Assembly (NCBI RefSeq): GCF_000685395.1
Contig: NZ_AVSQ01000023.1
Coordinates: 1 to 46,991 of the forward strand
Source of the DNA: Candidatus Nitrosotenuis chungbukensis
GTDB taxonomy: Archaea; Thermoproteota; Nitrososphaeria; Nitrososphaerales; Nitrosopumilaceae
Direction: 5' to 3'
Length of the DNA stretch: 46,991 bases
This document shows, piece after piece, positions 34,292 to 35,251 of the stretch. Below the pieces are notes generated by a model, which saw nothing but the letters and a program-made list of their open reading frames with translations, was not told the DNA's origin and did no database searches. Position numbers and translations under genes: made by a program. How positions within the stretch are numbered: the first letter of the stretch is position 1; each line of letters opens with the position of its first letter.

Positions 34292-34380
34292 CGATCAGCC
34301 CCAAGGACGCTCAAATCGTGAGTGAAATGATCGTGAGAAACATTAATACCCTTATATCTCAGTAAACCCGACTATCAGTC

Positions 34381-34662
34381 ATGACCACATACAGAACCAG
34401 TATGCAAATCGTAGCGGATCTGCTAGTTGCTACTGACCAGTGTGGACAAGAAGGCATCAAGGTAACATCCCTTCTAACAAAGGCAAATCTGTCACATTCG
34501 AGACTGTCCAAGTTTGTCGAAAACCTGACCGGTGCTGGCCTGATTAACAAAATTGACTTTGACGGCAAGAACACCTTTGTCATAACAACAAAGGGAAAGC
34601 AATACCTCGAGTCATACAGACGATTCCATGATTTAGCAGAATCGTTTGGTCTAGACATGTAA
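34381..34662 (+). CDS. Winged-helix DNA-binding protein (paralogue 2)
   Basis: The 93-residue protein aligns along its length with the product of 25708-25995: MTTYRTSMQIVADLLVAT, then the helix-turn-helix KANLSHSRLSKFVENLTGAG and a wing with FVITTKGKQYLESYR. A TATA box TTATATCT (34352-34359) is centred 25.5 bp before the ATG. The direct repeat ATCGTGAG (34315-34322 and 34330-34337) lies just upstream and shares GTGAG with the palindrome of paralogue 1. Confidence 0.83.
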   Translation: MTTYRTSMQIVADLLVATDQCGQEGIKVTSLLTKANLSHSRLSKFVENLTGAGLINKIDFDGKNTFVITTKGKQYLESYRRFHDLAESFGLDM

Positions 34663-34839
34663 TTATCGTCGTTTTGCTCTTGGCTGAGTTCGTCTTCTTT
34701 TGATTGTAGTGTATACGATTATGACCAGCGCACCTGCCAGCTGGGCGTAGAACAGCACCAGGTTTGGCGGGTCCCTCATTATCGCAAATACCATTCCCAT
34801 GGCAAGCATTACCATGATAATAATGAGGTACTTGCTCAT
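34663..34839 (-). CDS. Small two-helix membrane protein, divergent paralogue A
   Basis: From the chosen ATG the protein is about 58 residues: MSKYLIIIMVMLAMGMVFAI, a short DPPN turn, a second hydrophobic segment with AGALVIIVYTTI and a basic RRR-rich tail. The frame is open 13 codons further, but those codons would lie upstream of the expected transcript start set by the shared TATA box. The divergent gene at 34890 has the same layout (MSK, two helices, D-x-P turn, AGGALAIILY, basic tail). Confidence 0.65.
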   Translation of the reverse strand: MSKYLIIIMVMLAMGMVFAIMRDPPNLVLFYAQLAGALVIIVYTTIKRRRTQPRAKRR

Positions 34840-34861
34840 GCAAAGTCTAGATAAAAAAACA

Positions 34862-34867
34862 ATATAT
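34862..34867. promoter_or_regulatory. Bidirectional TATA box midway between two divergent genes
   Basis: The self-complementary core ATATAT is centred at 34864.5. It lies exactly 25.5 bp from the first base of the ATG at 34839 (minus) and 25.5 bp from the ATG at 34890 (plus). A single TBP site read in both directions would give leaderless transcripts for both genes. Confidence 0.6.
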
Positions 34868-34889
34868 CTTTTCAACATTGAGACAACCC

Positions 34890-35060
34890 ATGAGCAAGAC
34901 TCTGGAACTCATCGGCTTTGCACTGATCGGCGGGACGGCGTATTCGTTTTTGTTCATGACGGATAATCCTCTGCGATGGCCAGTGTTCTGGGGCTGTGCC
35001 GGCGGCGCACTTGCCATCATACTGTATAGAAGATCAAAACAGAAAAAAGCGCAGACATGA
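34890..35060 (+). CDS. Small two-helix membrane protein, divergent paralogue B
   Basis: From ATG 34890 the product is 56 residues: MSKTLELIGFALIGGTAYSF, a DNP turn, a second hydrophobic segment CAGGALAIILY and a basic tail RRSKQKK. An upstream in-frame TTG at 34878 would lie before the expected transcript start. It matches the divergent gene in length, topology and several positions, so the pair probably arose by duplication. Function unknown. Confidence 0.65.
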   Translation: MSKTLELIGFALIGGTAYSFLFMTDNPLRWPVFWGCAGGALAIILYRRSKQKKAQT

Positions 35061-35170: not shown

Positions 35171-35251
35171 ATGACGGAACAGACTAGTAAATGGTGGCAA
35201 GGACTTGCAAAAGAACTTGAGATGGACATAGAATCCCCAGAAGAACAATAA
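35171..35251 (+). CDS. Candidate 26-residue microprotein
   Basis: The frame reads MTEQTSKWWQGLAKELEMDI and ends with an acidic ESPEEQ tail. It would form a short amphipathic helix. A TATA box CTATAAAG (35136-35143) is centred about 31 bp upstream of the ATG, leaving a leader of about 5 nt. It is too short for a family match by eye. It sits between a membrane microprotein and tRNA-Thr. Confidence 0.4.
   Translation: MTEQTSKWWQGLAKELEMDIESPEEQ

Follow-up and report, generated by a model that had tools for sequence, protein, structure and literature searches.

The stretch analysed here (the window, 46,991 nucleotides of contig NZ_AVSQ01000023.1 of Candidatus Nitrosotenuis chungbukensis) contains two very small genes in head-to-head orientation. 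Gene A (34663-34839, minus strand, stop codon included) encodes a 58-residue membrane microprotein with a predicted helical hairpin and a basic C-terminal tail, and gene B (34890-35060, plus strand, stop codon included) encodes a paralogue of 56 residues. Their ATG codons, at 34837-34839 on the minus strand and at 34890-34892 on the plus strand, are separated by an intergenic gap of 50 bp, in which a self-complementary TATA hexamer common to both genes, ATATAT (34862-34867, without strand), is located. The initial annotation had placed the centre of this hexamer 25.5 bp from both start codons, and the coordinates were confirmed. The hexamer is flanked by an A-rich, BRE-like element for transcription towards B (34853-34859, plus strand) and by a BRE-like element for transcription towards A (34868-34875, minus strand, reading TTGAAAAG on that strand). 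The predicted transcription starts, deduced from the spacing and from the pyrimidine that precedes them, are the first bases of the start codons of A (34839, minus strand, leaderless) and, in the window's genus, of B (34890, plus strand). Beyond A, and convergent with it, lies a winged-helix gene (34381-34662, plus strand) that belongs to Pfam HTH_45, with NCBIfam Sso10a_fam below its cut-off. The genome of the window encodes three TBPs.

An in-frame ATG further upstream, at 34878, was rejected as the start of A, as nothing is conserved above the MDK residues and an in-frame stop codon lies within 45 nt in 115 of 146 genomes. Between B and a tRNA-Thr gene, a 26-codon open reading frame (MTEQTSKWWQGLAKELEMDIESPEEQ; 35171-35251, plus strand) was noticed; similar reading frames occur on the same side in 50 of the 146 loci, peptides resembling WWKGLAKEL can also be read in stretches from genus g9, which are devoid of A and B, and it has the appearance of a conserved micro-ORF. 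The first nine bases of A (34831-34839) and B (34890-34898) are identical (ATGAGCAAG) only in G000 and G076 among the 17 genus members compared, generating an inverted repeat around the promoter in these two genomes, whereas A of most relatives has GTGGACAAG; either local conversion or coincidence would account for this.

The initial annotation had regarded A and B as paralogues, and the pairwise alignment bears this out, with 31% identity and an E value of 1e-7 (BLASTP). A comparison of profiles built from two alignments of 32 rows each gave an hhalign probability of 97.6% (E 4.2e-12), and in a tree built from 32 proteins of each kind, A and B separated cleanly, with a support of 0.999 and none of the 64 sequences misplaced. 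Profiles expanded from either protein converged on the same 341 open reading frames, and stricter profiles assigned every one of these to either A or B, with zero ambiguous cases. Because of this convergence, the clean separation by profiles and tree and the strong profile-profile match, A and B are ancient paralogues. AlphaFold2 models predict helical hairpins for both proteins, with helices at residues 3-21 and 27-51 of A (pLDDT 83) and at residues 2-22 and 29-55 of B (pLDDT 78.5). The two helices per protein that had been proposed were thus recovered as predictions. At a Kyte-Doolittle cut of 1.6, both helices of A pass, as does the first helix of B; the second helix of B does not and is therefore only a presumptive membrane helix. 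Besides M1, F30 and G36 are invariant in the A alignment, while the 32-row B alignment has invariant F33, C36 and A37 and nearly invariant K3 and E6. Two smaller points of likeness apply less widely than had been assumed: the common MSK start is found in the window and in G076, but A of the other 15 genus members reads M-D-K or M-G-K, and the D-x-P turn is not a feature of relatives in general.

Neither A nor B could be placed convincingly in a family of Pfam or NCBIfam, the weak matches being to helical membrane regions. For A, no family of either collection exceeded its curated cut-off. B reached a score of 16.6 with LPXTG_anchor (cut-off 15.9) over 24 residues, with no single stretch passing alone, which we read as similarity of a hydrophobic segment followed by a basic tail. 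A Foldseek search of the PDB with the B model yielded no match at E <= 0.001 and 18 weak ones.

When 200 genomes of the window's family were searched with each protein singly, 151 had an A-like match and 152 a B-like one. In 146 of the 200 genomes, representing 19 genera, A and B lie on one contig, and they are divergent in all 146. The winged-helix gene lies beyond A and convergent with it at every one of these loci, and at least 115 have a GlmM-like gene after B, a count bounded by the length of the flanks examined. The genomes outside the 146 are four of genus g6 with B only, one of genus g8 with A only, G101 with A at a contig edge, G015 and G033 with A and B on separate contigs, 37 of genus g9 with neither gene, and nine others with neither gene or one weak, unplaced match. 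In these nine, the locus seems to be missing from the assembly, because their best match to the winged-helix protein has a far poorer E value. A second B-like gene is present on another contig in G125 (L142, L141). When 300 genomes of the class were searched with the B profile, 138 matched, and among the matches listed all belong to the window's family.

The core promoter itself was compared in 128 of the 146 genomes (core score above 5), which represent 17 genera. Aligned on the hexamer, they yield the consensus acAAAAca-ATATAT-CTTTTTGA, and an A-rich, BRE-like element is present on both flanks, giving the arrangement BRE-TATA-BRE. Positions -3 to -5 match their own reverse complement at 0.92-1.00, so that AAA on one side is mirrored by TTT on the other. 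A 21-bp form of the core was found in 104 stretches among 84,980 species genomes, and the matches with a title stem mostly from Nitrosopumilus, Nitrosarchaeum and Thaumarchaeota. Eighty of the 104 stretches were fetched, and 75 of them carry A and B in the expected orientation; the remaining five comprise three with A only (two near the end of the stretch) and two unrelated ones (Pelagibacterales and Lachnospiraceae records). The Pelagibacterales-labelled contig (L263) contains the 21-bp core with no A, B or winged-helix gene within about 1200 bp, and either chance or a stray contig would explain it.

For comparison, a model of ordinary promoters was trained on 215 and 256 upstream regions, and it recovered the expected BRE and TTTAAATA-like signal near -30 to -24. 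Measured against the TTTAAATA-type model of the same genome, the core ranks at the 62nd percentile in the direction of B and at the 35th in the direction of A. The core is therefore ordinary or weak by this measure, and the model gives no help to a bidirectional reading. What argues for such a reading is the conservation of both flanks together with the spacing, and on these observations we consider it highly probable that one bidirectional BRE-TATA-BRE core promoter serves both A and B. Factor binding, transcript starts and co-expression of A and B are what we infer from them.

With start codons assigned on the protein alignment (many A genes start with GTG), the distance from the TATA centre to the start of A is 25 bp in 134 of the 146 genomes, 26 bp in six, 27 bp in two, and 28, 29, 35 and 180 bp in one genome each, the values of 35 and 180 bp belonging to weak or absent cores (G006, G049). 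The distance to the start of B is 25-28 bp in 39 genomes, 31-40 bp in 81, at most 23 bp in 23, 29-30 bp in two and 55 bp in one, with a range of 13-40 bp outside genus g16. In the window's genus, A is located at 25 bp and B at 25-27 bp in 17 of 17 genomes, the two distances being exactly 25 bp in 12 and within 1 bp of each other in 16. The exact midway position of the TATA box is a trait of the window's genus and not a rule of the family; outside this genus, the B spacing drifts to about 36 bp, corresponding to a short leader, or to about 20 bp. A single central TATA in a gap of about 50 bp thus characterizes the window and its genus, and familywide it applies to A, but B has this spacing only in the 39 genomes with 25-28 bp, if the start codon is equated with the transcription start. 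Relatives with the spacing preserved at just one of the two genes had been singled out in the initial annotation as evidence against a shared element; such relatives were found to the extent that A keeps its distance while B drifts outside the window's genus.

The spacing also bears on whether a single box is universal. In 19 of the 28 genomes of genus g19, the hexamer ATATAT is replaced by ATTTAT (ATTAAATCATTTATC), with an AT-rich ATTAAA just before it, and in 18 genomes of this genus B is at 19-23 bp, too close for the 25-bp rule to be applied from the box of A. It is an even question whether part of g19 has two overlapping TATA boxes, one for each gene. Such a split would be restricted to this one genus and both boxes would still overlap the same core, so that it is a variant compatible with one bidirectional core promoter. 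At the g19 loci with ATTTAT (L053-L060 and others), the intergenic gap frequently measures 45 bp, which gives the impression of a single box that has turned into an overlapping pair.

The sequence context of the start codons, counted in 144 of the 146 genomes (g16 and G006 were dropped), points to leaderless transcripts for A. A pyrimidine occupies position -1 of A in 94% of the 144 genomes, compared with 42-70% at positions -8 to -2. At -1 of B a pyrimidine is present in 17 of 17 genomes of the window's genus; the 39 genomes with B at 25-28 bp have it in 56% (raw) or 40% (weighted by genus), and outside the window's genus this signal at B is weak. The two hallmarks of leaderless genes, the distance to TATA and a YR step at the start, are thus present at A, and at B in the window's genus; they are lacking at B outside this genus, where the gene lies 31-40 bp away in 81 of the 146. 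In genomes with B at 31 bp or more, the frequency of YR steps peaks at 25 bp from the TATA centre (0.46, and at most 0.38 at other positions), a modest hint that B transcripts there may carry a short leader, and among the 81 genomes with B at 31-40 bp an SD-like motif within 15 nt was found in three. The earlier idea of two leaderless transcripts from one TATA box is thus upheld by comparison for A, and for B in the window's genus, while a short B leader is predicted for most relatives. A literature search yielded no mapped transcript starts for the window's family.

A near-palindromic core could also be an operator. According to this explanation, the core would mainly bind a specific regulator, such as the product of the adjacent winged-helix gene, and would overlap two ordinary promoters. 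Apart from the symmetry of the core, the constant presence of the winged-helix gene next to A and the far better conservation of its product compared with A or B speak in its favor. However, samples of two genomes (0.35 Mb and 0.40 Mb) contain no comparable second site, the best other sites scoring 5.1 and 8.9 compared with 28.2 and 39.0 for the respective cores; the winged-helix protein is also retained in g9 genomes that lack the pair; and the distance to the start codon of A is that of a core promoter. We consider an operator unlikely.

It should be noted that the rigid spacing of A and the drifting spacing of B would also be expected if the core were the promoter of A only and B used another, weakly conserved element closer to its start. 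The lineages in which the pair is incomplete bear on this point. Usually, the core is gone where the pair is broken, which favors a promoter shared by both genes: in the three genomes of g16, A and B are apart (on different contigs in two and 235 bp apart in one) and the core is absent, and the four g6 genomes, which lack A, show a degenerate core and a separate TTTAATATAA situated about 26 bp ahead of the B start. The single g8 genome (79% complete), in which no B was found, retains the whole core with A alone, and therefore the B half of the core may also serve A. While g6 and g8 agree with a promoter of A only, the flanks of the core do not. Over ten positions in the 128 genomes, they contain 10.8 bits upstream and 12.9 bits downstream of TATA, compared with 11.3 bits upstream and only 4.3 bits downstream in the one-way promoter of the neighbouring winged-helix gene, used as a control (135 of 146 genomes). 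In addition, no second AT-rich element exists in the five genomes of the G+C-rich genera g2 and g11, in which the core is the sole AT-rich island in the gap, and the constant 25-27 bp to B in the window's genus would not be expected. A promoter of A only is accordingly a very unlikely explanation. The control promoter itself (AATACcC-TTATAT, window positions 34320-34380, plus strand) is strongly conserved and directional, and its TATA centre is mostly 26 bp from the start codon (82 of 135 genomes).

Divergent neighbours with gaps of 45-56 bp also occur elsewhere, in 3 of 54 cases in a sample of the window's genome and in 5 of 72 in a sample of G030, and some of these gaps also have a central TATA-like stretch; the architecture itself is therefore not unique. 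Nevertheless, a chance AT-rich hexamer between two unrelated small reading frames can be dismissed, as the pair and its spacing are conserved in 146 genomes of 19 genera.

One bidirectional core promoter for A and B would operate as follows. TBP would bind to the self-complementary ATATAT, and TFB would dock on the A-rich BRE of either side, thereby orienting RNA polymerase towards A or towards B. In each direction transcription would start about 25 bp from the TATA centre, so that the A mRNA would be leaderless throughout the family, as would the B mRNA in the window's genus; in most other genera, B transcripts would have about 6-15 nt ahead of the start codon. The encoded proteins, two paralogous microproteins predicted to form membrane hairpins, may work in one membrane complex. 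Expression of A and B in a fixed ratio may occur, and it does not follow from the shared TATA, because the BRE on each side sets the orientation of TBP-TFB.

Divergent promoters of bacteria and archaea reportedly arise from sequence symmetry (Warman et al. 2021). The core described here resembles such promoters, as discussed in PMC10268837, in its near-symmetrical element and in the predicted two-way initiation. The bacterial form, according to the same source, has a symmetrical -10 element, starts that are usually 18 bp apart, and no TBP or TFB. The closest parallel is found in Pyrococcus furiosus. As described in PMC6640164, its BRE-TATA-BRE promoters have one TATA box with a BRE on both flanks, located midway between opposite starts 50 bp apart, and one case with starts 49 bp apart was proven in vitro, with similar output both ways. 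The model advanced there is that TBP binding is symmetrical and that the direction is determined by TFB, and PMC7289017 likewise attributes direction to the contact between TFB and BRE. The P. furiosus cases analysed in PMC6640164 consist of a gene and an antisense RNA described as probable noise, whereas in the present case a conserved protein-coding gene lies on each side, and the core is retained with the pair in 17 genera. Like the leaderless archaeal mRNAs treated in PMC7289017, A, and B in the window's genus, would have the start codon at the transcription start and TATA at a fixed distance; unlike in those mRNAs, a single element appears to serve two leaderless genes in the window's genus. 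The literature search found nothing on bidirectional promoters in Nitrosopumilus, or on a small membrane protein together with its promoter. Thus, the type of promoter is already known, while the A/B case is new and unusually well conserved.

Paralogy and synteny suggest joint action of A and B, and we tentatively propose, with somewhat less than even confidence, that the two proteins work in one heteromeric membrane complex with the basic tails in the cytosol. The genomes of g6 and g8, in which one gene persists without the other, argue against joint action. A more speculative scenario, to which we assign a low probability, derives A, B and their palindromic promoter together from one small gene that was duplicated in inverted orientation around its own TATA box. 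The site would have been kept since polymerase can take only one direction in each round, and the two subunits of a hetero-oligomeric membrane complex would thereby be coupled without a regulator; the A spacing would be rigid since the mRNA must be leaderless, and changes in the length of the B leader would be free to adjust B translation in individual genera.

In genus g9, from which the pair is absent, the order of winged-helix, GlmM-like and ThiL-like genes is kept in seven of eight loci read, the eighth having no GlmM-like gene within the stretch read. The locus offers a natural, deeply conserved case of an archaeal two-way core promoter that apparently drives two coding genes, and lineages without one gene, both genes or the linkage provide natural controls. 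The choice of direction by TFB and BRE, and the evolution of leader length next to a promoter that is fixed in place, can be examined here in a compact system. Neither of the two microprotein families corresponds to a named one, and both are widespread among archaea of the Nitrosopumilus-Nitrosarchaeum group.
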